DNA of 45,397 nt from Candidatus Woesearchaeota archaeon (GCA_018221205.1 JAAOYF010000014.1:1-45397), one strand, 5' to 3'. Counted from the first letter of the stretch, positions 18,504-42,500 are shown. Notes: generated from the sequence alone by a model not told the origin. Translations and numbers: made by a program.

Positions 18504-21500
18504 GGTGATAGAGTCATTGAAAAGGGCTTTTGCTAATAAGAGCTCTGTCCTAGTTTTAGCTGTACTCTTAGCCACCATGCTCTTCGCTGCTTTGCTTTAT
18601 TTCAACCCGACCATAACAGGATTTGCAGTATTTGACCAGAATGAGATCTCAGAAAAAGTGGAGTGGAATCTGGACAAGACAACACAGAAGACTATCACGC
18701 TGAATGCGACAAAAGAACTGACAGCTATCTCCATATCCGGTGAATTGAACGGTTCTGCTAGGGTCTATCTCCTTTACAATGATGAGAGATATCTTATCTT
18801 CGACGGATCGAACGTTACGTCGCTAGTCTATCCACTGCAAGCGAACGTATCAAATGCATCCATAACAACCATCTTGAAATATCAATCAGGGACAGCATTC
18901 GACCCTGATGATGACGGCATCTCTCTGGATACAGAAGCGATCGACTTCACCGTAAATGAATCTAGGATAAACGAAACCTTAAACGCATCCAATCTCTGCA
19001 CAGTATGGGCAGCAGAACAATCTCTTTGCCATGGCTCATCTTCATGCTGTGATTTCCTCGATCTCAACCAAGATTCAGAGGACTGGGATGATGCATTCTA
19101 TCTCACCTCCAAACAGCCCTCTTACAGTGTTTCAGCCCAGATTTTCTATATAGACTACAGCCTTGATCCTAAAAATCCATATACAGATTTCTATTCAAGC
19201 AGCAAAGCCACCTTGCCTGCATTCTTCTACAAAACCCAAGGCACCTTCACAGCAGAGTGCACGGATACGTGCACATTGTCAGGAATCAAAGGATCCTCTT
19301 TCACCTTGCTTATTGAGATAGATGACGGTTCCATGACCATAGATGGACTGCAGTACTCACTTGATTCAGCAACAAATTCACCGCCTTCCTTCCAGGATCT
19401 CCCAAATCTTACCATAGAGAAGGACTCAACCTATATGTTGAATCTTTCTGACTATGTCTCTGATAGCGAGGGAGATATCTTGACCTATAAGGTGTTCCAG
19501 CTGGATAACATAAGCATAAACTTCTCAGGAAATCTCGCATACCTGACTCCAGATCCAGGCTATAGGGGGCAGGCTTCAACATTTATCATAGCAAATGACT
19601 CACAAGCGATCGGTATTTCCAACATCTTCACCATAATGGTGGAAGAGACTGAAGAGCCATTCAAACCCATAAAGCAAGTAGAGCTTGGAAAGCCTGTTAC
19701 GTGGAGAAAACGCCTCTCAGCAACCAAGAATCTTACCTTCAATCTCACACCGCATGCCTACAATATCTCAGTGAAGCAGATCATCACAGATATCTCTCTG
19801 AAAATTCCAGAAAGATTCATCGCCATAGCAGGAAAATCTCTGAAAAAGTACAATAACGACACCTTCATCAAAGTGAAGCAGAAGCTGCTCAAGGCCCAAC
19901 AGCAAGACATACAGCTGAACATTGAAAATACCACAGGAACAGTCGAGATTGAGTACATGACAGAAGGCCCTGAAGCATTTGAGTCTTCTCTCGACAACGG
20001 AAAACAAGTAATCATCAGTTCAGAGGTCCATTATGAGGATATAAAAGCATTCACCACCATAAGAGAAAGCTCTCTCAGCTCGATCAATCTCTTCCACGTC
20101 ATCAATGGTACCAAGCAAAAGATAGCGTTCAACGCATCCGATACTGATGGAGATTCATTATACGATTACATCGAGTGGACCATTCCCCATTTGAGCAACC
20201 AGACCTATGAGATCATATACATCTCAAAAGCAGAACACTTGGATACAAACAGGACATTCATTGCTGACATAACTGACAAAGTAGAAAGCAGGGATGGTGA
20301 TTGGATAGCTGTCCCAGATAGCAATTACGTAAGGATTACGTTCGAAAGAAAACTCTCAAAAGGCCGCGACATCACGATCTTCGCGAGATCGAATGATTCC
20401 GCAACTGTGGAAGTATTCCTCGAAAACTCCACAGACCAACTCGCTAATTTTGGCTCCATCAATATAGATCAGCGCTACCAGATATTCCTCAATAATCTCA
20501 CTCAAGAAGCAGATACATTCGATTTATTGGTAAGTGGAGGGACAGTTGAGTTTGATTATATCGTTGATCCAGCTGTCGGAGTGAATATAACTCAGCCTGA
20601 CGCAGCTGCTCCAGGAATGGACGTTGTCGTGCAATTCGTCGGAACAAGCTTTGATGCTACTGATACAGTGACCGTAAATACAACAGATATCATTGTTGGA
20701 CCAATAACAGTCACTGATCAAACTGGTGCTGTAGTCTCTTCAGGAGGCCGCGTCTTAACGACAGTCTTCTTTATCAGCGATGTAGCGACAGATCAAGATG
20801 TGCAGGTGAATATCACCGGTTCAACAATCCCGAATCCATTCAAGATTATAACACCAACAACTGGTTCAGGTAATTTCACCGGCGCTTCCGGAACAGTAAC
20901 AATTGGTGATGGCAATAACGGCACGCGGACACAAGGTGGAGCGATAATTCTTGACAGCCTCATTATACCATCGGGTGTGACAGTAATAGTTGATACCTCT
21001 GATCCCGATGCCACCGCAAGCAATGGAAATCAGGGATTCCTTCCTGCAGTGATATTAGTTGACGGCCCCGTAAACATCTCTGGAACGTTGAACATAAGCG
21101 GCCAAGATGGAGCAGTTGGTGCAAGTGCAGGAACCGGCGGAGCAGGCGGAGATGGAGGTCCAGGAGCAGGCGGAGGAGGTTCTGCTGGAGGAGACGGTAC
21201 AGCTGCCATAGGTGCTGGAGGAGATGGATTCTCAGGCGGCGGCGGCGGAGCGAGAGGCTCAGGCGGAGATGGCGGAGATGGCGGAGCAGGCACTGGCGGG
21301 CCAGGAGTGGCTGGCGGAGATGGCGGCGGCGGAGATGGCGGCTATCCAATGTTTGGTGATTCACCCTTGGGAGGCCAAGGTGGTGAGGATCCTGGAGGAA
21401 GTGCAGGAAGTACTGGAGCAGGCGGTTCAGGAGATCCTTTCGGTACCCAAGCTACAGCAAGTGCTGGAGTGAATACTGCTGGAGAAGGAGGTGCAAGCGG

Positions 21501-24500
21501 CGCTGGTGAGAGCGGCGGAGCTTCCGGCGGAGGCGGAGGCGGATTTGGAACAGCAGGTACAGATGGCCAACAGCAATCCGGCGGAGATTTAAACGAACAA
21601 GGCTATGGCGGTTTGGTAGCAGGAAATCAATTCTTAGTTCCACTCTCAGGAGGTTCGGGTGGATCAGGAGGTTCTCCAGATGACGGAGGCTCCGGAGATA
21701 GGATGGGGGGAGGAGGCGCAGGTGGAGGAGGAAGTGTCCTTATCTACTCACCAATTGAAATCAGAATAACCGGTTATATCTTATCAGAAGGTGGAGATGG
21801 TGGAAATGCTGGTCCCGGAGGAACTCAACGTGCCGGCGCAGGAGGAGGAGGTTCAGGCGGTGCAATAACACTTCAATCTCCAATAATCAACAATACGGGC
21901 CTTATCAATACCACAGGAGGAGGAGCAGGAACCTATGGAGGAACTGGCGCTGCAGGTGGAACAGGCGGCTTAGGAAGATTGAGGATTGATGGTGCTCGAG
22001 ACTCAACCTATTTTGGATCTGGATCAACTTATGGCAGCGGTTTCATAGGTCCTGCGTTAACTGAAATTGAAGTAGACCAAATCTCAGGAATTGCGGCTGC
22101 TTCTTCAACCGTTGATATCAGAATAATAAATTCACTTGGCACCGATTATTACAAGACAACAGCAGATAGTGATGGAGACTTTACTATCACTCCCGCATAT
22201 AGAAAGGGGTTGAACTATATCTCAGCCATGCAAAATACAAGCAGCGATACTTATTCAGTTATGGGATCTGCCTCAGTTGGAGTCTTTGATTACACACCAC
22301 CACCGAATATTACCGCCTTGGATTATCCACCAGATGTATCTTTTGTCAATGATGTTCCTCTCGACTATAACTTCACCGTTCATGATGATCAATTCATTGC
22401 AAACTGCAGCCTTTGGACAAATATGAGTGCTACCTGGACACTCAATACAACAATAGTACCAACAACAAATAATTCCCAGACATACAATATTACCCTAATT
22501 GTTCCAGATGGGAAGTTTAAATGGAATGTGCAGTGCTACGATAATGCATCCGGGTCCTCTTGGTTCAGCACAAATTACACCTTTACATTGGATTCAATCA
22601 AGCCAGAGGCGACAATCATATCAATTGATCCAAATCCAGCAAATCAGACATTGGACAATGTGACTGTTGAATGGGCTGCTTCCGATATCCATCTGCACAC
22701 CGCTTACGTAAATGTAACGTATCAAGATGGCTCCTTTATCAGCCAGTACACTGATAATTTCACCTTGACAACGATCAACCTCTCTGATGCAGGGAACTAT
22801 ACGATAACCTTATTTGCGAATGACTCAGCCGGTAACATCAATACGACATCAAGCATATTGACAGTAATTGACAGAATTCCGCCGAATATCACCCTGATCA
22901 ATCCAACGAATAGGACGTATGATATGGATGGCAACATCAATTTCACGTTTAATATAACAGATTTCTCATCTATCTTGAACTGCAGCCTCTTGTTCAGCGG
23001 AATCCCGATATCTTCTAATACAAGTGTCAATAAGAGCATTGCACAGAAATTTAGACAGACGAATATGGCTGATGGAGATTATATCTGGCATATCAGCTGC
23101 ACCGATGCTGAAACCAATCTCGGCCGCTCTTCAAACTGGACAGTGATTGTCGATAAAACCTTACCAACAGTCACGCTCAATTATCCCGAAAACAATAGGT
23201 ATTTCTCCCAATTAACGCTTCAGATGAACCACACGCCGGATGATCCCGGAGTGGCAGATCATCTAGAGGCATGTGAGCTTTGGACTAATTTTTCAAGCAG
23301 CTGGCAGCTCAATCAGACAGAATATTCTCCAAAATCAGACCAGAACAACGGATTTGACTTTGTCACGCTGTCTGAAAATGTCTACAGCTGGAATGTCGTC
23401 TGTAACGACACGGCGAAGAACATCGGCTGGGGCACAGCAAATTACACCTTTACTGTTGATATCACAAACCCAACTGTTGAATTTATCTGGCCTACCCCCA
23501 TAAACAACAGTAATCAGACCTCTTCAAGCCTGACCATAAATGTCAGCCACACCGAGATCCATCCCGAAATCCTGGTGCTTCTCATCAACTCTTCAAGAAA
23601 TGTCACCAAGCCTTACAGCGGATCATTCACCAATATGACCCTCACTGATCTTGACGATGGCATATACACAGTCAGGGTAGGCGTAAATGATTCTGCAAAG
23701 AATATCAATTATACAGAGATAAGACTTATACGTATCGATGCAACACCCCCACAGCTTTATCTGGAATCACCCCTTAATGATACCTGGAAGACGAGCACGA
23801 GTGTGGACTTCAATTACAACACATCGGATAATCTCATTGGTGTAGAGAACTGCACACTCTATATAGCCGGAACTCTGAATGACACCAGTTCATCGATAAC
23901 AGAAGGCATTTCCCAACAGCTCTCCGCAAATATAGGCAACAGCTTCAGTAATGAATGGTATGTCAGCTGTATTGACAGGCTTGGAAACACCAATGACTCA
24001 GAGACAAGGATAATCAAAGTGGATATTACGTTCCCCGGCATGGAGGATGAAGCCATTAACGGTACAGAGTTTGATGTCAATGACCATATCTGCCTCAACG
24101 TCACGGCTTCAGATACCTATTCAGGTGTTGCCCAGGTACTGGCAGAGATTGACTATCCTACATCCGGTTTGACTAATGTTTCCCTATCAAATTCAAGTAC
24201 CTGTAAAGGTGCAGGTGGAGCTGTCTGGGCAGCAGCATTGCAGCTCGTCGAGGACAAGAACTATAATTGGAGCAGGACCTTTGCTGTTGACATAGCAGGG
24301 AATGTGAATATCACCTATCCTCCAACAATCCTTAATTGGTCAGCAAATGCAACAATCTTCCTCAATACCACGATTCTGCAGCCAACGATTAATTTCGTAC
24401 TCAATGAATCATCAAATTCCATTAATGTCAGTTATTTGCAGCAATGTAACGTAAGTTGCCGTGATGATTCTAGCGCATCATGCGAAGGCATCTATCTCTT

Positions 24501-27500
24501 CACCGATTACTTCGAAGGTTCATGGAACACTATAACGACGACGACGCAGACATTCATCAGCAGCCTTGATAATTACTCCTGCGGTACGCTTGCAGCGGAA
24601 GAATCATGCCAGCAGACCTTCAATGTGACCATAGGCAGAGAATCAGGAGGGTCTACCTACAGGATGAGGTGCCGGACCTCATCGACAAACGCACCATCAG
24701 ATTATTCAGTCGAGTTTAATCTCACTGTAAATGATTATCCTGTGGCCAAAATGCTTTATCCTACAAACAACGAATGGCTTCATGGAATCGAGATTATCAA
24801 CGTTTCAACAAGTACTGATGACAGAGAAATAACACAGTATATCTTTGAGGTGGACAACAACACTGACTTTGACTCACCGACACTGCTCTGCGACACCCTC
24901 AATACAGGAGCGCAGGGTACTGCATCTACGGGCAATCTCACAGGAACCTATGGCCAGTCAGGAGGAAACTATACTAATACAACACAGAACGACACTTCCT
25001 ACTGGTTCGTTGGCAATAGTGGTTCGTTTTCCATAAATGCCTATGCAGTCGCAACATACAATCTGTCAAAGACAGGCGTTGCGGAAGAGGATCTCACAGC
25101 ACTTTCCTTCAGCATGGTCTATTGTCACAGCGGAAGTGATTATCCAGGGGTGGAATGTGCAGGAACAGCAGCAACTGGTTCAGTCGATGGCACACAGCAG
25201 GTAGAGGCATTCAACTATTCTAACAGCCAGTGGACGGATATTGGAGACTTAAGGACGGATGATGCAGGGAACGAGATTTACGACGAGTTTAGCGTGCCAG
25301 GAAATCTTTCAGACTTCATCAACGATACGAGCGATGAGATCCGTATCAGATATGAGATGGATTATATTAACGCCTTCGCTGAAGACCGCAGTTTCCTGGT
25401 CATCGATCATGCGATCCTTGATATCAGCTATGACCTGGGCCTGGACTCCTGTTCTTTTGACACGACAAACCAGACGCAATGTGATGAAGAATCACAGACC
25501 TGTTATCTGCGATTGAATGTGACAGATTCAGATGGCCTAAGGAATTCAACATACATCACTATTAGCATAGATAACATCGGTCCGACAACCACCCTTCTCA
25601 GACCGATCAATTTCACGAATATAACTGCGAGCACCTATCTCATGAATGTTTCAGTACAGGATGTTGGATCTGGTGCCGATACCATCACTTACCTCTACAG
25701 AGAAAACAATACTGCTTCATGGAACTCATTATGCACACGTTCTACTACTCCCTATAACTGCACCTGGGACCTCTCTTCACTTGAGGAGGGCCGAAACTAT
25801 CAGCTGAGGGCATATGCGAATGATTCCGAAAGCAATCTTGGCGGCAACGATACTGCTATGAATATCACCCTGGACAGGCTCGGCCCTATTATCACTCTGA
25901 ATGCTCCTGGAAACAACACCTGGAACCTGGACGACATAATCTTCAATTATACGGTGAATGACATTCATTCAGATATCGCGAGCTGCAGCCTGCTGATTAA
26001 TTCCATCACCAACCAGACCAATACCACTATTACCGAGGGAGCAGACCTTAAATTCACCATAAACGGCATAGCCGATGGATATTACACCTGGAGAGTGTTA
26101 TGCAAGGATATGCTGGACAATGTAAATAACTCAGAGATAAGGATCCTCAAAGTGGATAATTCAGGGCCGACGAGCACAGTCATCAATCCCCCGGATTTCA
26201 CCAATATCTCTGGCTCTTACACGGTGAATGCGACCGTCACCGATGCAGGCAGCGGCGTCAATACTACTCTCTTCTACTATCGCCAGAATCTCTCCGCATC
26301 CTGGATGCTCATCTGTTCAGATGAGACATCTCCCTATGAATGCAATTGGGATACCAGCTCTTTGCCAGAGGCCGTAAGCTATGAAGTGAGGGCATATGCG
26401 AATGACAGCTTGGGGTACATTGGGGATAATGACACTAATACGAACATTTCTGTTGACCGGACGTCACCAGTAATTAACCTCCTTGCCCCAGGGAACAATT
26501 CACAGGATGTTGACGGCATCGTTGACTTCAATTTCTCAGTGACTGATGCATTATTGGGAGTGCCGAACTGCAGCCTCATCATCAACGGTTCAGTCAATAG
26601 GACTGCTTTCGGAATCCAGGAATCTTCCGCTGAGAACATAACCCTAGACAATCTGGTGAATGGCTTCTATCACTGGAATGTCAGCTGTTCCGATGATGCA
26701 GGCAACACAAACACTTCTGACACGCGGGCAGTCACCATAGCGCCCGATGCAGATCCGCCGAATGTCTCTCTCAACTCTCCTACAAATAGTTCAACTATCT
26801 CGAACCAAGATGTGGCCCTCACTTATACCGTGACCGATGCCCTCTCAGAAATATCAAACTGCAGCTTATTCTTCCTGGAGACATTTAATCAGACCAATTC
26901 CACGGCAGTCACAGAAGGCGCATCAAATGTCTTCAATGTTTATAATCTTGACAATGGGAATTACTCGTGGCGTGTTGAATGTACTGATACAGCAGTCTCT
27001 CCGAATACAGGAGCGAGCGGAACCTACAATTTCACAGTAAACAACTTGCCTTCAATGAGGATAAACCTTACTGCAGATCAACTACAGTATGAAGTTGGAG
27101 AGAGAGCATCTCTCAATACTTCAACTAGTGACGAGTTCGGCAACCCGATAAATACAACAGTCACTACAGATATCATCTTAGGGAATACCAGCACGCCATG
27201 GTGGAACACCTCCTGGAAGAGGAGGAAGCCGGTTTTCATAAATGACACTACCGGATCTTACAGGGCAGATGTATTAGTGAACGTTAATGTCAGTGGCCTG
27301 GGGGGCTATATCACTGACTGCACTAACGAAATAAGGGTTGTAGGCAACAATTCGCTGAGCTTTTCAGATGTCCCGGTCAATATAGTAGGAGGCGACAACT
27401 CGACGTACTGCGACATCACCTTTAGGGGCAATGTCTCCGCAAGTGCAGTTGATGAGAACACTTATTTCGTGTACTACAATAATTCTGGTGCAGCTGATCC

Positions 27501-30500
27501 TGGCCATGGCCTTATGAATATAACGGAAAATGTCACTTTTGATACTTTCGAGGCTGATTTCGGTAATTGGACAGACCAAGGAGGGACTTGTCTCTATGTA
27601 CGGAATCAGGATGTTACTCCATCCGCTACAACTGGATTTGGTAATACAGGAGGGCAAGGGTTTGACCATACTTTAGGTACTTCTTCTGGATGGTATATCT
27701 ATGTGGAGGCCTCTGGAAACGTGTGCCAGGGCGGAGATACTGAAGCAGATGTGGTAAGTAATTCTTTCACAGCCGGTTCGGCAAGCACAACGTTATCATT
27801 CTGGTTCCAGATGCATGGAAATGCTGTCGGAACACTGCATGTTGATGTCAATGATGGTGGGTGGAACAATGACCTCTGGACACAGGTTAATCAGAATCAG
27901 AGTTCGCCTCTTGATCCCTGGGCATTTGCTCAGGTTGACCTTAGTGCTTACTCAGGGCAATTACAGGTGAGATTCAGATATGATGGAGTGACTGGGTGGC
28001 AGGCAGACCAACTGCTTGATGATATCAATATAACAGTAGGCAATCGGATCAGTAATGGTCTGGCGTCGTATACAGGAGAGACAGAGGAATTTATACAGGA
28101 AAACACAAGCGTGACAGGGGATGATGGATATTGGATTTGGTCTTGGAATACTTTTGGTCAGAGCTTCGGTAATTACTCTGCTGTTTCACTATCGACCAGC
28201 CAAGACTATGACGATGGCTCGGATTATACACTCTTTGAAATCATACCCGACACCTCAAACCCCCGGATTTCATTGAATTATCCTTACAATAATTCATGGA
28301 ATAATACTAACAGTTTGACTTTCCATTACACTCCGACAGACAATGCCCACCACTTTGCAAATTGCTCCTTGTACTTCAATAGCATATTAAATAAGACAAA
28401 TACAACATCAATTTCTGACGCACAGCAAAATAGTTTCTCGCTTTCAGGTATTGTTGTAGGAAAGCATAATTGGAGCATCTCCTGTTTCGATATTTCCGGA
28501 AATCAGAATTCTTCTGAAACAAGGTTCTTCTTCATAGATCAGACCCCCCCTTCAATAAATCTAGATTGGCCTATCGATGGCTATAATACCACTACCTCGA
28601 TGCTTGATCTGAACTTTACAGCATTTGACAACATGGATACGGGTTTGACATGCAATATCACGTTGGATAATGTCATGCTTTCATCTATAGGGGCAGCAAA
28701 TGGTACTCTATCAGGCGCAAACGCTGAGGATCTCACAAATAGTCTCCATAGGTGGAACGTCACTTGTCAGGATAATGCAACGAATGTCAACACCAGCCTC
28801 ACCAGAACATTTATTGTCGATAGTATCGCTCCGACAATTGAATTAAACAAACCGTCTAATGACAGTTGGGATAATTCAGGATTGATAGAATTCAACTTTA
28901 CAGCAACCGATACTTATCTGCACCGATGTGAACTGTGGGGAAATTTCAGCGCTTCTTGGTTGAAGAATCGGACAGTATATGGTCCACCTTCTGGTTCGGA
29001 GACAAACTTCAGCAAAGTGACTATCCCTGATGGCATCTATTACTGGGGAGTCAACTGCTCGGATTATGCAGGCAACCTCAATTGGAGCAATGCCAACTTT
29101 ACGATAAAAATCGACACGACCATTCCGCAGATCGGTTTTGCTTCAAACAATCCAATCAACAATTCAAATCAATCTTCAACGTCAGTGTTTATTAATGCCA
29201 CCCACACCGAAGTGAATTCCCACACGATTATCTTCTACTGGAATGGCTCTCAGAATGAAACGAGGGCATATTCATCACTCTATACAAATATTACTTTGCC
29301 CAATATTGTAGATGGGCCTTATACTTATTATGTCTGGGTAAATGACTCCGCTACCAATGAGAATCAGACCGAAACAAGGACTATAACAATAGATACAATC
29401 GCCCCAGATCTCTCTCTTGTATCACCACAGAACAACTCATGGATAAATAACGCCTCTAATCCTGCTCTTTTCATCTATACGGCAGACGATGACTTGCTCA
29501 TAGTGGAAAATTGCAGCCTCTATGTCGATAGCATCTGGAACCAGACAAATGCGACGATAAGTGAAGGCATAAATCAGAACTTCACCTTGCAGCTTTACAG
29601 CGCAAATTATACCTGGAATGTACAGTGCTATGACACAGTCGGCAATCTCAATACCTCTGAGACTCGGAAAGCGAAGGTGGATCTCTCCTTCCCCACAATT
29701 GCCAACACCAACACCAACAACACCAATACCACAGTGAGTGATTACATCTGCATCAATGCGACAATAGCAGATACCTTCTCACAGGTGCTCCAGGCCTATG
29801 CGCATATCGTCGATCCTGATAGCGTGACGCAGACAGTCTATCTCGTCGACAACTCAACAACAACCTGCGATGGATCAAATGGAGATGGTATCTACTCTGC
29901 TACCTATCAGCTGACAAAGGCAGGCACGTACAACTGGACGCGCATGTACGCGAAAGACTTCGCAGGCAACCTCAATCTTACTTTTGTCGGCATTGAGATG
30001 AACTCGACAAGCTTCATCTCCATGAATTCCACCTTATACTACCCGACAGGCACATTCGAAATTAACGAATCGACAGGAAGCTTTGCCATGAACTGCTCTG
30101 CCACCTGTGATCCGACATCTGAGACCTGTACGAATGTCAGGCTGAGGGCAAGCTATAATGAGAGCGGCAGCAGCTACATTACCACCTTAACCACCGATTT
30201 GACAAACGATATCAACGGTTATGTCTGTGGAGATCTCAGCCCAGGAGCAACATGCAGCAATGTCTTCACTATTGATGCATCTGATACCTCAGGCCAGGAG
30301 AACTGGCGTGTCTGGTGTACGGGGAACTCAGATAATGCAGGATCGATAGATTCAGAAGATGAAGTTAATCTCACGATCAATGACAGGCCTTACGCCATGT
30401 GGGATTACCCTATTGATTTGGAGTGGCTCAGCGGCACTGAGAATCTGACAGCTCTCTCCTCCTATGATAATGATGGCTCCCTTGGTCTCTATACATTCGA

Positions 30501-33500
30501 GCTAGACAATAACACCGCTTTCAGCACACCGACAACCATCTGCGACTCAACAGACGGCAACTGCACTTTTGATACGACATCACAATCACAATGTACTCAG
30601 CATACCTTCGACTGCTACCTGAAATTAACAGTGACGGATGATAATTATGCCACCAACAGCACCATTCTCAACATCGGCATTGACAATATTGGACCCACAA
30701 CGACAATACTGAGGCCATTGAACGGCACAAACATAAGCACCTCGGTCTATGAGATGAATGCTTCCATTGTAGATACAGGATCCGGAGTCAACACCACGAT
30801 CTTCGAACAGAGGCCAGATATACTGAGCGGATGGCAAGTAGCCTGTACAGATACTGACGGTACCTCGCCATTCAATTGCAGTTGGAATCTCGCATCCCTG
30901 GATGACGGCAAGAGCTATCAGGTCAGGATGCGGGCAAATGATTCTGAAGGCAACTACGGTAGCTATATCACAGTCTACAACATCACGGTAGACCGGTACG
31001 GTCCGGCAATCGATCTCAATAGTCCTGCAAACAATACCTGGAGCCTCAACGATATCATCTTCAGGTACACTCCAGATGATGCGTTCTCATACATTACGAG
31101 CTGCAGCCTCTATCTGAATGCGCAGCAGAATAAGTCAAATTCTTCAATAACAGATGGTCTTTCACAGAATGTCTCAGTATGGGATATGGCAGATGGCGAC
31201 TACAACTGGAGCATTCAATGTACAGATAGCCTCGGCAATCAGAACTCTTCATTGACAAGAAAGATAAAGATAGACAATACCGGCCCGACCGCATCTCTGG
31301 ACCAGCCGCAGAACTTCACTAACATCTCAGGCGCCTATACGGTAAATGCCACAGTCATGGATGCTGGGATAGGAATAAACGCAACATCATTCTACTACAG
31401 GCAGAACTTCTCAGCTTCATGGTCTTTGCTCTGCTCTGACACAACCGCCCCCTACGGATGCAACTGGAACACCCTTGGCTCTCCGGAGCGGAATTCCTAT
31501 GAAGTGAGGGCTTTTGCCAATGATAGCCTAGGAAATAGAGGAGCTAACTATACAAGCTACAATATCACGATTGACAACACCCCACCCTCTCTCGCGCTCA
31601 TCTTACCTGATAACAACAGCCAGGATATAGATGGCGCAGTGAATTTCACCTTCACTGTGTCAGATGCATTGATCGGCATCAGCCAGTGTATCTTGATCAT
31701 CAACAGCTCCACTAACGCAACATATAATTCGCCAGCAGAAGACGCAACCCTCGGTTTTTATGTCACGACGCTGAGGAATAATTCTCACCAATGGAGTGTC
31801 AACTGTACAGATACAGCAGGCAATACGCAGGCCTCAGATTTCAGGAATATCACCATAGGCCCAGATAATGACGCACCCCTCATCACCTTACTGACACCAG
31901 CAAATGAATCGACCTACACAAGCAGCGACATAGCATTCAATTATGTCGTTAATGACTTGCTTTCAGGAATAGCAAACTGCTCACTTTATTTCGACAGCCA
32001 GTTCAACCAGACCAATTCATCGGCGATAACAGAGGATGAGACAAACACATTCTCCATCAACAATGTTCCCAATGGCAACTACTCCTGGCAAGTAGAATGC
32101 ACGGACACAGCCGCCCCGCCGAATTCTGCGTTGAGTGTCATCCATAATTTCACCCTAGTCGAGACACAGGCATTGCATGTCAATGTGAGCCTGGATCAGA
32201 CAGTGTATGAACAGGGTGAGATAGCAATCATAAACTCTTCTGCAACTGACATCTTTGGCAACCCGATTGAGGCAAATGTGACGACAGACATCATTTTGGG
32301 AAAAACAGAAGTAGGATGGTGGAATTCCAGCTGGCTGCTCCGTAGAAGATTCAATCTAACCACTCCCGATGAGTCAAACAGGACCGCTGAGATAGTAAAG
32401 GTAAACATCTCAGGGCTAGGCGGTTCAATAGAGAGCTGCAGCAATGAGCTCCGCATAATTAGGGGCACAGTAGTGAAGACAGAGATATCCTTCACTTCTG
32501 AAGCAGGAGATGACAGCACATACTGTTATGTGAGATTCATTACGAATATAACCTATGGCACTCCAGAGATATATTACGCATATTACAATAATTCAAACGC
32601 CCCTGCACCAGGGTATTCAACAGTGGCAACACAGTACGTCGCGAATGGAAATATGAATGGGGCGTCAGACTGGACATATACAGAGACTGAAGCGAGTGAT
32701 GTTGGAGAATATTCTACAGCGCAATCAAATTCACCATCACGATCATATCATATCTACAATGACGGAACAAGTGGAACAATAGGACTCTATGGTGAAATCT
32801 ACCAAGATATTGAGCTACCTTGTGTTGGCTGCAATCTCACGATAAGTGCGTATAATAGGCTAGAAAGTGCAGGATCAACAGTTGCTGCATTTGTAGCCCA
32901 CATTATTATCGATACATTTTATTTATCAAGTATTGATTTTCCTGGAAGTGCCGGATCACCCATAGATTGGACGATACGAAGTAATACCAGCTATAGGCCG
33001 CAATCATCAACTGAGCGGCTTTATCTACGAATGACCACTAACATGGACTTCGCCGGATGGGGCCAGCGTGATTCCTATTGGGATGATGTTAATATTACGA
33101 TTAATAAACCAATTGATACGAGTATGGTCATGTCAGCGGAAGAGAATTGGATAAGCACCAACTCAAATGAGACAGGTGATGGTGGTTACTGGATATGGTA
33201 TTGGAGTACATACACCCAAGAAGTCAGCAATTATTCCGCTGTTTCATATGTGACAAATCCGAACTATAACCCCGGGTCCAATTCTTCCTTCTTCGAGATC
33301 CTGCCCGACACATCAAATCCAGCTGTTTCACTTATATCTCCACTGAATCTTTCCTGGAATAAGACAGGAAATGTGACCTTTAAGTACATTCCTACAGACA
33401 ATGCCCATCGGTTTGCGAATTGCTCGCTGATACTGAATGATGCATTCAACAAGACAAATTCATCTGCAATCACAGAAGCAGTCCAGAATAGCCTGAGCCT

Positions 33501-36500
33501 GAACAATATGGCAGAAGGAGCATATAACTGGAGCATCACCTGCTTCGATCTGGAAGACAACCAGAATACTTCAGTTACTCAATTCTTCTACGTGGATAAG
33601 ACTAAGCCCGCCATCAGCCTTGAATATCCTATTGACAGTTTCAATACATCGCTTACGACGATAAATTTCAATTTCACCGTAACAGATTATTTCTATCCAG
33701 ACAATATGAATTGTGAGCTCTACTATGACAGCAAAATCAACAATTCTGCATCACTCTTAGTGCCGAACGGAAGCTACAGCAATTACACAGTGAACAATAT
33801 GGTGGGAGGATCCCATACATGGAGAGTGACATGTCAGGACAACGCGACAAATCTTAACACCAGCCTCACAAGATCGTTCATTATCGACTTCATCGCACCA
33901 TCAACAACACTGAATGCACCAGAGAACAACAGCTGGGATGCCGATGGCTCTGTCCAGATGCAATACACACCAGTAGATACTTACCTCAAATCATGCGACC
34001 TCTGGGGTAACTTCTCAGGCAGCTGGGCATTCAATCAGACCGATAGTAATCCGTCCTCAGGAAGCCAGAACTCATTCAATGCGATAGCATTGACAGATGG
34101 CTATTACATCTGGGCTGTCAATTGTACAGATCATTCATTGAATTACAACTGGAGCAAAAATAATTTCTCCATAAACATCGACACTACGGCGCCGACAATT
34201 GACTTTGCAGGAGGCACCGCATCCGATGACTCTTATTATAATAGGGACTATATCTATGTCAACGTGACCGCTTCTGACTCCAATGAGGCCAATATCACCT
34301 TCAGGCTCTATAACACGACCTCAATAGTGAATATCACAACATTGCCTGCAGGCTATCGCGACATAAACTTTACCGGCCTGAACACGAACGAGCAGTATAC
34401 CTATAACGTAACGATACTGGACAAGGCAAGGAATAATGCCTCAACCTCAACAAGGACACTGACGCTGGACTCAATAAACCCGATAGTCAGCTTAGATGCT
34501 CCAGCTGACAGCCACCTCACTAATAGCACCATTATAACATTCAATTATACTTCCTTTAATACAAATGCCGATTCCTGCACAATCTACCATAATGCATCAG
34601 GATGGGCAGCAAATGATACCCAATCAGTCACTTCAGGAGTGCAGAAATCAGTCTCCAAGACATTCTTCGATGGAGATTTCATCTGGAATGTCTTCTGCAA
34701 TGATTCCGCAGGCAATGCTGCTTGGAACGCCACCAACTTCACTTTCATCATAGATACTACCGCACCTTCAATTGACTTCGCAGGCAATAATCCAGTAAAT
34801 AATTCAAATCAGAGTTCAAGTCAGGTCTTTATCAACACAACACATACTGAAGTCCATCCAGACACCATCAGGCTTTACTGGAATGGGGTCCAGAACCAGA
34901 CAAAGACATATGCAGCAACCTACACAAATTTCACCCTCATCCCGATAGCAGACGGCTCCTATACCTATTATGTCTGGATCAACGATACTGCCTGGAACAA
35001 GAACCAGACAGAGACGAGGAAAATAACTGTTGACACCACACCACCCACACTCTCCCTGAATGCACCAGAGAACGATACCTGGAGTAATGAACTGAGGACA
35101 CTCTTCAATTTCACCACAAATGATGCCCTCATCGGTGTCCAGGCATGCAGCTTAGTGATAGACAGCAAGCTGAATCAGACGAACAGTTCGATTAGTGAAG
35201 GAGTCTCCCAGTACTTCAATCATGTGCTTGGAAGCAGCTATGGGTACAACTGGTCTGTCAATTGCACTGATACATTAGGCAATGAGAATATCTCAGAGAC
35301 ACGGATCATCAAGATCGACAAGAGTCTTCCCACAATAACCGGAGAGAACATCAACGAGACCTCTCTAGAGGTAAACTTCCAGATCTGTTTGAACGTCTCT
35401 GTCACCGATACTTATTCCGATCTCGCTTCAGTCATAGCAACAGTTGAGTTCCCATCAGGTGAGCAGAACGTTTCCTTGAGCAACACAACAGGCTGCGGCA
35501 ATGTCGGCGGTAGTATCTGGACAGACGAACTGTCCTTGCCAGAGCAGGGCGATTACAATTGGACACGTACCTACGCGACTGACAACGCAGGAAACACCCA
35601 GCTCAATTATCTTTCTGTACAAAGGAACTGGTCTACCTTTGCCAATAACTTCCTGAACTCGACCATCACCAGGCCAATAGCAAATTTCGAGCTTAATGAA
35701 TCCACCGTAGCAGCAGTAAGCTACTACAACCAGTCTTGCGAGGCTTCCTGCGAAGTAAGCTCAACTCTGGACTGCGAAAATGTCTATATTTTTGCAGACT
35801 ACTATGACGGCAGCTGGACCAAGATCACGACAGCAACAACAAAATTCTACGCAGATGTCGACAACGGATCCTGCGGCACCGTGACAAAAGGAGATACCTG
35901 CAGCCAGCAGTTCAATGTCAGTGTAGGCACAAATGCAGGAGGCACGATCTATCCGATCAGATGTAGGGCTGCTTCAACCAATTCCGCAACCAGCTATTCC
36001 ACAGAAACGTTGGAAGTGAATGCAACCATCAATGATTTCCCTGTTGCCAGGTTCTCCCACCCGACGAATAGCACTTGGCACTACGGCGTCGAGATCCTGA
36101 ATGCATCGACATCGACAGACGATCAAGGCATTTCCTTATACAGCTTTGAGCTCGATAACAACCAAGCATTCAGCAGCCCGACCTTGCTCTGTTCAACCGC
36201 TGACGCAAATTGCACATTCAACACATCAGCGCAGACCGAATGCACCGAAGAAGTGATGGGCTGCTATCTCAGGCTGAATGTAACAGATTCAGACGGCCTC
36301 AAGAATTGGACCATCATAACCTTTGGAATTGACAATACCGGTCCCACTGCTGTCTTAGACAGGCCAAGAAACTTCACGAACACCTCTTCAAACGCTTATA
36401 CCGTTAATGCATCTCTCTCAGATGCAGGCAACGGCTCAATCTCCGCTGCAATATTCCAGTATAGAGAGAATTTCCAGGAGACATGGACTACAGCCTGTAT

Positions 36501-39500
36501 TGATTATACTGCACCATTCGCCTGCTCCTGGAACCTTGCAGCACTTCCAGACCACAACCAGTATGAATTATTGGTATATGGCAATGACAGCTTCGGCAAT
36601 ATCGGAGGAAATGACACTCACTATAACATCACTCTTGATAAGACCCCTGCAGCGATCACTCTTTTCAATCCAGACAACAATTCAGTTGATACAGATGGAT
36701 TCATTGCATTTAGCTACAACGTGACCGATAATCTCTCATCACCTTCATCTTGTACATTGGTCCTCAACTCAAAAGCAAATGAGACCAACTCCTCAGTCCT
36801 AGAATCACAGAACAACAGCTTCTCATTGGAATATATGGGAGAGCAGAAGTATAACTGGAGCATCAACTGTACAGACACCCTCGGAAATGTAGGGTCATCA
36901 GTAAATTATAATCTCACCGTGGATATCGATGATGACGCACCCAATATCACCCTGGTGGCACCAGAAAATGAGTCAACCTATACAAGCAAGGTCATCATCT
37001 TCCAGTATGATGTTGTGGATGCTCTATCAGGAATCGCCAATTGCAGCCTCTATTTCAACAATGAATTCAACCAGACGAACAGCTCGACAGTATCAGAAAG
37101 CGTGACCAATACCTTCACCATCACCAATGTCAACGACGGAAACTACTCCTGGTACGTGCAATGTGCTGATTCCAACTGGAAATATCATAGCGTAGGGACT
37201 TCAGATATCTTCAATTTCACCCTGGTCGTGACCACAAACATCAAAGTGAATGTCACCGCGAGCAGCGCGACCTATCAGCAGGGTGAGTTTGCAAACATCA
37301 CGACAAAGACAGTGGATAAGTTCAGTAATGCAATCAACACATCAGTCACTACCAGCTTCATAAATGCTTCTACGACCATACCTTGGTGGAATTCCAGCTT
37401 CTCCTATAGGCGTCAGATGAATATCACTAATCCGAGCACAGCTACTCTGTCTGCCAATTACACTGCCAACTATACCTTAGACACAACAGGATTCGTCTCA
37501 GCCGGTCTGATGCAGACCTCTGGCAAAGACTTGAGGATTGCGTGGTGGAATAACGAGACAAATAGCTGGACAGAGATGGACAGGCTCGTCACCAGCATGA
37601 ACACAGCCTCAACCACCGCCCTGTTCAAGATACGAAGAAATATCTCAGCCAGTTCTTCAGACCTCAGCTATTATCTCTATTACGGAAATAGTTCAGTGGC
37701 AGATGGGCCCACGGATAGGAAAAACATCTACTTCTACTTCGATGGCTTTGATACAGATACACTCAGCAATTATAATACTACAAGAGCATTCAGCTCCTCA
37801 TCAGAGGAATCAGATGATAATCTGACACATGATTCGCGCGGATGGATAAACTATTCTGGTTCAGCAAATTATGGTAAGTCGCTGAGAAAAGAGATTCCAA
37901 ATATCAAAGATGCGATTATAGAAATAGACCAATATGTCGACACCATGCTTGGAGCGCCCACAGCCTCAAGGCTCGAGGTAGCAGCGAAGATGAATGAAGA
38001 CAGCTATTATTACTTCTATGCCTCCACAAATCTCTTCAACAGCCAGCTCGGCAGGTATAATGACGGGTCAGAGACGTTCTCAACGACAAGGAATATCCAG
38101 TATACAGATGTCGACACCTGGTACAGGCTCAAGTTTGTCGTTTATGATAATGGCTCTAACGTCTATCTCAACTCTTATGTGGACGGATCGTTGATGATAG
38201 GCTATAATGATACTAATGTGCAGAAGCTCAACACTACCGGAGGCTTCGGTATAGGCAGCTATCAGCTAGACGGCAGATGGGACAATCTCACAGTGAGCAG
38301 GTACTTTGATACTCCGCCAACGTTCTCTACAAAAGGAGAGGAATACTTGGTCGCAACCCAAACAGAAGAGACTGGCCTGGACGGCATACTCACAATCTTG
38401 CAGGATACTATTACGTTCGAGACTGGCAGCCACACAGCAATTTCACTAGCTTCAAATCCAAACTATCTCAATGGTTTCAATTACACCACTATCACTATAG
38501 TGGCAGATACGGACTATCCGCAAGTGAGCCTTGTCTCTCCAGAGAATAATTCCTGGCTCAACAATCAGAACGTATCATTCGTCTATGTCCCAACCGATAA
38601 TACTCAGAAGTTTGCAAACTGCTCCTTGATCCTGAACAGTATCTACAATGAGACAAACTCTACACCACTGACCCATAATGCCCAGAATAATTTCACGTTG
38701 AATGACATGCCACAAGGCTATCACAACTGGAGCATAACGTGCTTTGATCTTGCGCAACAGCAGAATACCTCAGTCACGCAGTATTTCTACATCGATACTA
38801 CAGATCCTACGGTAACTCCCCAATATCCATCAGATGATTCTTATCTATCGCTAGTAGATATCAATTTCAATTTCACAGTGAGCGATAATCTTGATGCAGA
38901 GCTTCTGTGCAACCTGACATTAGACAGCAAGCAGAATAACTCTCAATATATCGTTGCCCAGAATGGATCGTATGCAAACTACACGATACATAACATCATC
39001 AATGGCAACCATACCTGGAGCGTGACTTGTTCCGATAACGCCACAAATGTACAGACAACCTCAACACTTTCTTTAGTTGTCGACACCATAGAGCCAGGCA
39101 TCACCTTGCAGGCTCCAGCACCAGCATTCGCGACCGGAGACGACTTCATCAGCTTCAACTGGACAGCAATCGATAATCTTGACACATCCTTGTTCTGTAA
39201 CCTCACTGTAGATGGCAAGGTGAATGCATCCACTGTTGTCTCTCCAAACGGCACCATGGTGAACCACACCACCCATAATCTAGGATTCGGCACCCATTAT
39301 TGGAATGTCACCTGCGAAGACACTTCCCTTAATACAAATACATCATTGACAAGAAACTTCACTATTTCAGGACAGCCGCCTTACTGGAGCAATAACCAGA
39401 ATTTCACTCCAGCTACTTATTCACCAACACAACAAAGCTCCTTTAACATCACCTGGCAGGATGACATCTCCATAAATTCAGCATGGTTCGAGAGCAATTA

Positions 39501-42500
39501 CTCAGGATCAAGGACTAATCTCAGCATGACTGATCTCGCTGCTGACAAATATAATTTCTCAGGCATATTGCCTGCAGGAACCCATTACTGGAGATCGCAC
39601 GCTAATGACTCTTCAGGATTATGGAATCAGACTAATGAATGGACCTTCACCATAGCAAAAGTGTCTACATCATGTTCATTGGATGTAAGCGCCTCTCCAG
39701 TAAGCTATAGCGTACAGACCCAGGCAAATTGTTCCTGTACAAATCTTGATCTCTCAGCGTCATTATTCAGGAATGGATCTGATGTCACATCGCAGAATGG
39801 CACTTTTACGACATTGGCAGCAGGAAATTGGTATTACACCTGTAACGTAACGTCCACCCAGAACTATACGACAGACTCAATCTCAAGATGGATAAATGTG
39901 ACACAGGCAGCAGGAACACTCAACCTCTTCATAAACAGCAGCACAGCAGACTATAGGTATAATGTAAGCTTCGACACCAATATCACCTGCCTACTAGCAA
40001 CACCTTCAACAGGAAACCTTACTATCTATGAAGACGGTGTCCAGATACAGTCAGCAATCGCCGACAGAGCAAACCTGACAAGGACATATACAGCACCAGC
40101 CCAGCACAACATTACTTGTATACTCGAGGATCATCTGAATTATACTGCGTCAGACTTCAGCTGGCTCAACGCCACAGACGAAGACAGCCTCTCCCTCTCC
40201 CAGAACTATCCACCACAGAACTACTACAATGACTCATCAGATCCTTATCAGATAACATTCGACTGTTCTGCCACCGATAACTATAATCTGCAGAATATCA
40301 CTCTTTATATGACGGGTCCATTGAATCAAAGCTTCGCTCCAAACCAATCTGCCTCCCTCACAGGCACATCCGATAGCGCAACATGGCCAGTGACATTAGG
40401 AAACGGCAATTATACGTGGAACTGCCTGGTCTATGATGAATATAATAATACATTATGGGGTGTGAACCGGACTGTTCTCATAAATTACACCATTGACATC
40501 AACATCTCCGATCTGGCAGGAAACAGGCTCGACTATACGCTCGAGAATCTTGGCCAGACAGACGGCCTTTACGATTTAAGGATAACATTCACATCAGAAG
40601 ATCCCGATGCAATGCTTATCAGAGGCTATAATGACACTGCAGAGGGTTACATACTCTTTGAATCTCCAACAAACGAGACATGGGGACAGGATAGTTATGC
40701 AATTTCAATAGAAGGAGCAGTCTTGAACAACTTGACCCTTACTTTAGTTGCGAATGGTTCCTATGTCTATAAGTGTGACAACTGGAATATGAGCAATCTG
40801 ACCTGTAAGGATGAGAATGTCTGGGACACGATTGCCCTGCCGACACTGAATCAAAAATATAACATAACCATAAATTCAACGGATCCAGGTTTCGTAGAGC
40901 TCAATATACCAGAATCTGATGTCTTAGATGACAGCATAGCAGGAGAATCTTCTCCATCAACAGAATGGGGAGGAGCATCAGTGACTGCTATCCAGAATTA
41001 CACAAATAACGCAGCCCATTCCATGTATAAATTCAATATCTCAAGTATACCCAGCGATGCAAATATCCAGAGCGCCACACTTTATCTTACCTGTAATCAG
41101 GAGAACCTCGAGTCAGGAGATAGCATCAGCTTCGGCGCCCATAGGGTCTATGGCAACTTCGGCTGGATTGAGGGAACAGGTTCTGGAATCGGTGGCGCAG
41201 CCTGCACAGGAGAAGAGTTCTGTTGGAACAATAAACCTACCCAAGGAACAGAATACAACGCAACAGCAGAAGATTCAGATACCTTCGGCAATGGATGCCC
41301 AGGAACACAAGTAGCATTGAACGTTTTCCATATGGTAAAGGCAGCCTACCTCAATAGCGAGGATAACATCTCAATCTATATCGTGCCGAACGGAACGACA
41401 GCTGGTACCGTAACAAATGATTGGATAAGGATCGCTTCTAAGGAAAACAACAATCCTGCAAGAAGACCAGTCCTTAATATTACTTATACGACTGTGCCTA
41501 AAGTCATCAATCTCACACCCAAAGCAGGAACGGTCTTCGATACGAATGTAGGAGTCAATATCTCAGCTAATGTGACAGACAACCCAGCTGCCGCGAACAT
41601 CTCATGGGTACTGGTCAACATCACCTTGCCAGATGCATCATTAGAGCAGATAAGGCTCAATAATACACAAGGAGATGACATCTACTATGGCAATTATTCG
41701 AACACTTCATTGATAGGGACCTATACAGTGAGATTCATAGCCAACAACACTGATGATGTAGAGAATGCGTCAGAGACAACATGGTTCTACATCCGGGATA
41801 GCATATCGCCGGTAGTGAGCCTCCAAAGCCCCATACCTAATTATTATAATGATACTAGCGATCCATCCGATGTCTTCTTTAACTGTTCGGTGACTGACAA
41901 TTATAACTTGCAGAATCTCACATTATACTTGACCGATTCATTGAATCAGAGCTTTGTTCCAAACAGCTCTGCCAGCATTAATGGCACATTTAATTATTCT
42001 ACCTGGACAGTCTCGCTAGGAAACGGAAACTACACCTGGAACTGCCTGGCATTTGACGAATTCAACAACACCGACTGGGGCATAAACCGGACAATATTGA
42101 TCAATTATTCTGACAAGCCGCCATACTGGAGCAATAATCAGAATTACACAGTAAGTACCTATTCCTCAACTGAAAGAAGCAGTTTCAATATCACCTGGGA
42201 AGATGACTATGGGGTAAGCTCAGTCTGGTTCGAATCCAACTACACAGGGACGGCAGAGAATTACAGTATGAATGCATTAGGCAGCAGCAAGTATAATTAT
42301 TCAGCAGTGTTCCCAGCCGGAACATTCTATTGGAGATCCTATGCAAATGACACATTGAATCAATGGAATCAGACAAGCCAATGGTTGTTTACAGTAGCGA
42401 GAGCTGCAAGCAGTGTAAATCTCTCACTCAATTACACAGATGCAGATATAACAATAGAAGCAGGCTCCACCATAAACATCTCAGCAGATCTTTTAATTCC

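Follow-up and report, generated by a model that had tools for sequence, protein, structure and literature searches.

Relation to Described Giant Surface Proteins

Immunoglobulin (Ig)-like domains that are split in sequence and project sugar-binding and other modules off the protein axis have been described for RTX adhesins such as FrhA, AhLap, and MpIBP (PMC10865825, PMC12077191). Nanohaloarchaea carry giant "SPEARE" proteins that are about 9,000 amino acids (aa) long, Ig/fibronectin-like, and thought to contact hosts (PMC10266531), and DUF2341 proteins have been tied to archaeal type IV pili, with a pilus-tip role proposed by analogy with PilY (PMC4858521). Here we analyze a 45,397-nt contig of a Candidatus Woesearchaeota archaeon (GCA_018221205.1, JAAOYF010000014.1:1-45397; hereafter the window), which carries a giant open reading frame (ORF) in which three successive super-repeats each hold, at the matching position behind a DUF2341 domain, a different domain, or head. 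DUF2341 and head together interrupt what is most likely a single Ig-like domain, and we call this arrangement a socket.

The protein shares with the RTX adhesins a long Ig stalk and several different modules per giant and, most likely, a sequence-discontinuous Ig-like domain from whose loop a CBM-type or other putative ligand-binding module buds. Unlike them, it is archaeal, a DUF2341 collar precedes its module within the probable split domain, its sockets occur once per 1,700-aa super-repeat whereas theirs cluster near the C-terminus, and about a dozen head families can be traced across one order. The RTX nonapeptide GGxGxDx[LIFV] was absent from the 8,975 aa that the contig encodes; the C-terminus, where RTX repeats and a type I secretion signal would be expected, lies beyond the contig, and a true RTX adhesin is unlikely given the archaeal host. 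The SPEARE proteins resemble it as Ig/fibronectin-like, presumably host-contacting proteins of about 9,000 aa in DPANN archaea; they are described with a VirB4/TraG-like ATPase domain, which was not seen here (no profile search was aimed at it, and the C-terminus is outside the contig), and the text consulted mentions no exchangeable sockets. As in the pilus-associated proteins, DUF2341 here belongs to a large adhesin-like surface protein, but it sits inside a probable split Ig domain, ahead of variable heads, and no pilus genes were recognized in the window. A literature search that left most subscription journals outside its scope found no description of this socket, and the split-domain reports it returned were bacterial. 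The best reading is an archaeal variant of the bacterial split-domain principle.

We consider it likely that the product of the ORF is a giant adhesin, secreted and anchored at the archaeal cell surface, with a conserved Ig stalk, split-Ig sockets, and replaceable heads of several putative specificities. This explanation draws on the super-repeats with unrelated heads at one site, the co-occurrence of the flanking halves, the movement of DUF2341 with the head, the recurrence of the socket across the order, a different insert at an orthologous position, and an empty second slot.

Three Unrelated Heads at One Position

The ORF, like all features given below, lies on the plus strand and runs from 18472 to the contig end at 45397 as a single uninterrupted frame of about 27 kb, encoding at least 8,975 aa; its 3' end lies beyond the contig, and GTG is its provisional start codon. 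Protein self-BLAST revealed three super-repeats, each close to 1,700 aa (offsets of ∼1,686–1,733 and 1,880 aa, E-values down to 1e-75), which full alignment placed at 23053–28263 (aa 1528–3264), 28264–33321 (aa 3265–4950), and 33322–38520 (aa 4951–6683). Identity among them in 60-column blocks was mostly 30–65% and fell to ∼10–30% at the heads, the only regions to reach background among the three copies. Between copies, the upstream 600 aa were 33–50% identical, the first Ig half 40–54%, DUF2341 30–38%, the second (post-head) half 31–54%, and the downstream 200 aa 45–54%. In their outer flanks, the window copies were mutual best matches, with the flank of another genome a close second upstream of copies 1 and 2.

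The head of copy 1 (27502–28080) is a MAM domain (Pfam PF00629, E 9.5e-15, 55.2 bits vs. a cut-off of 26.4), and the enteropeptidase MAM domain was its match in the PDB (E 1e-6). The copy 2 head (32611–33138) is probably a jelly roll resembling a carbohydrate-binding module (CBM), judging from fold matches that include CBM6E, CBM22, and further CBM-bearing enzymes; the whole-chain Foldseek search returned many CBM-bearing enzymes, and the isolated CBM6E matched with probability 1.00 over 116 columns at a template modeling (TM) score of only 0.18. The CBM_4_9 profile (PF02018) did not match this head in Pfam, and a PDB profile search with its family found nothing; a homologue in genome G068 (G numbers denote related genomes of the order) gave an E-value of 0.03 (15.1 bits, below the 25.9 cut-off). 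In its modeled structure the copy 3 head (37702–38337) is concanavalin A (ConA)-like, of the galectin/CBM66 type at the level of fold, with target-normalized Foldseek TM-scores of ∼0.63–0.68 to CBM66 and galectin-3 (mean predicted local distance difference test, pLDDT, 78; predicted TM-score 0.76); it had no Pfam match to LamG or Laminin_G_3. Pfam and NCBIfam hold almost no names for flanks and heads, and within the slots Pfam itself calls only the MAM domain of slot 1.

A sequence-only reading of the window had proposed a different module at the matching slot after DUF2341 in each of three super-repeats, and this proved correct, its coordinates lying within ∼60 bases of those given here. Its name for the first module stands on the Pfam match; CBM_4_9-like for the second is weakly backed by the sub-threshold homologue and by no Pfam match of the window head, and concanavalin/LamG-like for the third holds as a fold but not as a LamG profile. 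In the sequence following the slot, which it took to be shared, the motif GD(D/G)GYWIW...PDTSNP is strong in copies 1 and 2 only (54% identity); copy 3 reads GLDGILTI...ADTDYP there (31–36% identity to copies 1 and 2).

It is very improbable that the heads go back to a single jelly-roll domain that was duplicated with the super-repeat and then diverged, with no exchange. In favor of this alternative, all three are probably beta-sandwich or jelly-roll domains, and at the level of Pfam clans a deep superfamily may link MAM to galectin-like domains. Forced alignment gave 24–29% identity, with faint similarity between heads 1 and 2 (shuffle z 4.4) and z of 0.8 for 1 vs. 3 and 0.9 for 2 vs. 3. Yet profile comparison with hhalign detected no relation among the three window heads (probability ≤0.5%) while the flanks, which align in order, remain 33–54% identical, so the heads are not recognizable as diverged copies. 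The conditions that would have refuted the sequence-only reading, heads that are mere diverged copies or flanks out of order, were not borne out by sequence. For each head type, closer relatives exist elsewhere (head 2 at 62% in G068, head 3 at 51% in G083, head 1 at 36% in G144), and the copy 3 DUF2341 groups with ConA-type DUF2341 from elsewhere.

A Probable Split Ig-Like Domain as Host of DUF2341 and Head

In copy 1 the first half of the probable Ig/MG2-like host domain (27061–27198) leads into DUF2341 (subtype A, 27199–27501), and the second half follows the head at 28081–28263. The corresponding segments are 32179–32316, 32317–32610 (again subtype A), and 33139–33321 in copy 2, and 37246–37380, 37381–37701 (the ConA-associated subtype), and 38338–38520 in copy 3. 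Host halves were delimited by profile and segment alignment, except for the second half of copy 1 (profile); for the first half of copy 3, the segment alignment put the boundary one residue before the WW. DUF2341 subtypes were assigned by alignment homology and trees in copies 1 and 2, and by trees together with a Pfam match (PF10102) near its cut-off of 23.4 in copy 3 (26.5 bits in the genome search, 22.3 bits in hmmscan); copies 1 and 2 fall below Pfam detection and bear the name by homology to the family.

Stretches from relatives were scanned with two profiles, one for the pre-head part (Ig half plus DUF2341) and one for the post-head half; most socket loci had been found through searches with the window sockets. 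Where DUF2341 was preceded by the first Ig half, the second half lay downstream in 29 of 33 untruncated cases, as against 0 of 15 where the first half was missing (Fisher p 3.5e-9, only indicative, as related sequences were counted separately). A protein of G116 contains an uninterrupted domain that matches both halves across the junction (Ig profile E 4e-4; Pfam MG2 E 1.8e-6, below the MG2 cut-off). Because the halves co-occur and this uninterrupted relative exists, the two flanks are most likely halves of one Ig/MG2-like domain split by the insert. Structure models place strands on both sides of the insert (pLDDT mostly >80), and these would pack as one domain. Searching the PDB with a profile of the rejoined host gave weak matches only (a dextranase N-terminal region, E 0.04) and hence no proof of a split domain. 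The scaffold that the earlier reading saw around the slot thus does align across copies, but rather than plain flanks it is probably one interrupted domain.

Recurrence of the Socket Across the Order

A profile search of relatives in the order recovered 30 complete sockets in 16 genomes, with heads in 11 clusters: ConA-like (9), repeated beta-rich (4), GH114_assoc-like (3), H-lectin-like (3), MAM (2), Laminin_G_3 (1), CBM-like (1), and four others. Cluster names are from Pfam, some from matches below cut-off. Pairs of clusters reached hhalign probabilities of at most 13%, in a comparison whose small alignments give it low power. With two additional sockets in G337 (one CBM-like head and one of a twelfth type) and one in G059 with an h11 head, at least 33 sockets in 17 genomes hold about 12 unrelated head families, and the idea of exchangeable heads on a constant scaffold has good support far beyond the window. 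A Laminin_G_3 head proper occupies the socket in G144. MAM domains are rare in the order (above cut-off in 7 of 353 genomes; six genera have a match), and the head 2 family was clear in just two other genomes. One socket head of G337 (L114, G337:C96, residues ∼1400–1659) does not look like a jelly roll, is possibly alpha/beta, and has no Pfam match.

The 8,257-aa giant of G083 (L093, G083:C48), from another family of the order, has three sockets with Hlec, h8, and Hlec heads. The pair of copies with the most similar flanks (55 and 47%) differs in its heads, and copies 1 and 3 keep related ones (46%). The pattern recurs in G083 and in further separate assemblies, and this, together with the uninterrupted 27-kb frame of the window, makes it scarcely credible that different genes or strains were joined at repeats during assembly. 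The window spans all of contig C52 in a metagenome-type assembly of 74 contigs (1.28 Mb, 95% complete), and the gene is repetitive at the protein level, which would suit such an artifact, but because the copies are only ∼33–54% identical in protein, DNA repeats are unlikely to have misled the assembler.

The Probable Unit of Exchange

The DUF2341 tree rejected the window copies as one clade (delta log-likelihood, lnL, 99.9): copy 3 groups with DUF2341 of the ConA type from other genomes, and a separate clade (96/99) holds copies 1 and 2. DUF2341 was therefore exchanged together with the head in at least one copy, and by this tree the unit of exchange takes in both DUF2341 and head in at least some cases. 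The sequence-only reading needs changing here, as DUF2341 is not throughout a component of the constant scaffold. The host-Ig tree pairs copies 1 and 2 as sisters (94/88) and did not reject monophyly of all three (delta lnL 2.5). Head type changes 14 times on the DUF2341 tree (shuffle mean 20; 0 of 300 shuffles as low) and 17 times on the host-Ig tree (1 of 300), a weaker fit. From these distributions DUF2341 tends to travel with the head, and in the first DUF2341 clade heads change behind it as well.

Orthologues offer a natural comparison. The same-genus genomes G116 and G059 have collinear giants with syntenic downstream genes (one 67.7% identical); at one orthologous slot the flanks are 45 and 51% and DUF2341 29% identical, and the heads are unrelated, ConA-like vs. 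repeated beta-rich. Controls in which the head was kept are a second G116/G059 pair (h11, 53%) and G041/G109 (h3, 48%); the giants of G092 and G337, also from one genus, were not clearly orthologous.

Whole sockets, i.e., split Ig, DUF2341, and head, could instead have been acquired or shuffled as units, with no constant host; we regard this as unlikely. Copies 1 and 2 have sister host halves, 54% identical, despite their different heads, and the same head types occur in different host Ig families, which makes host separable from head: in G068 the CBM-like head and its DUF2341 lie inside a different, cysteine-rich Ig domain, and in G133 (L081, G133:C140) two MAM heads lie in such cysteine-rich Ig-like hosts, without DUF2341. 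The flanks of copies 1 and 2 being mutual best matches, duplication followed by replacement, as proposed in the sequence-only reading, is favored for this pair; we infer it rather than observe it, since the host-Ig tree is poorly resolved.

Several points weigh against an adhesin with a conserved stalk and replaceable heads. The poorly resolved host-Ig tree also does not reject the ConA-type hosts as one clade, and copy 3 may, on these relationships, have exchanged its whole split domain. The G116/G059 Ig halves (28 and 36%) are less alike than the outer flanks and as diverged as DUF2341; both this and the tree would suit whole-socket shuffling. Four full-length DUF2341 matches had no detected second half. 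The model of head 2 is weak (pLDDT 78 overall, mostly 60–79 in the head, and <50 at residues 151–193, where the head starts). The contig stops inside the giant gene, so that any C-terminal anchor or enzyme domains would lie outside the window.

A second slot in super-repeat 1 (slot B, 24907–25446) holds a GH114_assoc-like head of 180 aa, homologous to the h3 heads (E ∼1e-16), in another Ig loop and without DUF2341. The super-repeat alignment shows this site empty in super-repeats 2 and 3. A diversity-generating retroelement was considered as the motor of exchange and is not favored, because a search of the 95%-complete genome for reverse transcriptase (PF00078) gave no match and the copies differ by whole domains.

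Stalk, Heads, and Genomic Setting

Following a hydrophobic segment near the N-terminus, the giant consists of extracellular-type repeats in which T, N, or S makes up 33% of residues. It contains 543 N-X-S/T sequons vs. 209 expected from shuffles, a 2.6-fold excess; their density is 6.05 per 100 aa over the whole protein, 2.3 in shuffles, and about 3.0 in the heads. A sequon-rich giant with sequon-poorer heads fits a glycosylated stalk with exposed heads. The projected modules have lectin- or CBM-type folds in copy 3 (galectin/CBM66) and copy 2 (CBM-type matches), and a MAM domain in copy 1. The heads might instead be structural spacers or S-layer-type packing domains lacking ligand specificity, which we think doubtful. 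The giant is mostly stalk, and a binding role for the heads is putative, but the head families are of the lectin, CBM, and adhesion kind (MAM, galectin/CBM66 fold, CBM-like, LamG3, GH114_assoc), and heads are poorer in sequons than the stalk.

Elsewhere in the giant, a glycine-rich stretch (GGAGGDGG...) at ∼21064–22011 in the N-terminal third has a GC content above the rest of the gene, and a CBM96 carbohydrate-binding module was matched in the C-terminal part (40945–41131, E 9e-7). Among the genes in the first 17 kb of the window are those for an archaeal-type phosphopantothenate synthetase, RtcB, a Cdc6-type AAA protein, seryl-tRNA synthetase, and a transglutaminase-like protein. The phosphopantothenate synthetase and Cdc6-type genes mark the genome as archaeal, although searching it for archaeal 16S rRNA returned nothing; genome size and the giant proteins suggest that it belongs to the DPANN group. 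The genome also holds another giant frame, of 9,180 aa (contig C28, L005-L006, G000:C28:8181-35720), with three pairs of DUF2341 and LamG-like domains, apparently within a different split Ig host, as well as FG-GAP-like repeats.

Proposed Mechanism and Implications

In the adhesin that we propose, binding heads would project from a long Ig-domain stalk with abundant N-glycosylation sequons. Once per super-repeat the chain would leave one Ig/MG2-like domain after its third or fourth strand, build DUF2341 as a collar and then a head, and return to complete the Ig domain, so that the socket could accept unrelated heads. Besides duplication of the stalk unit, evolution would have involved replacement of the insert, either the head by itself or DUF2341 together with it, presumably through recombination. 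The outcome would be several binding specificities in one protein, by analogy with described adhesins, with ligands that are probably glycans or glycoproteins of the cells of a host or partner, and a putative role in cell–cell adhesion.

A further step is more tentative: the socket may be a dedicated exchange site through which DPANN archaea change host or partner range by drawing on an order-wide pool of heads and swapping several of them per polypeptide into a conserved stalk, in which case the set of heads would predict the attachment partners of each species.

These results would carry the split-domain principle over from bacterial adhesins to archaea. Filled and empty slots, and orthologues with different heads, are natural pairs for following the movement of modules within giant genes. 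Partner recognition by ultra-small archaea is largely unknown, and the socket catalogue offers candidate recognition modules with mappable boundaries; the socket itself looks like a natural site for changing what a cell sticks to.

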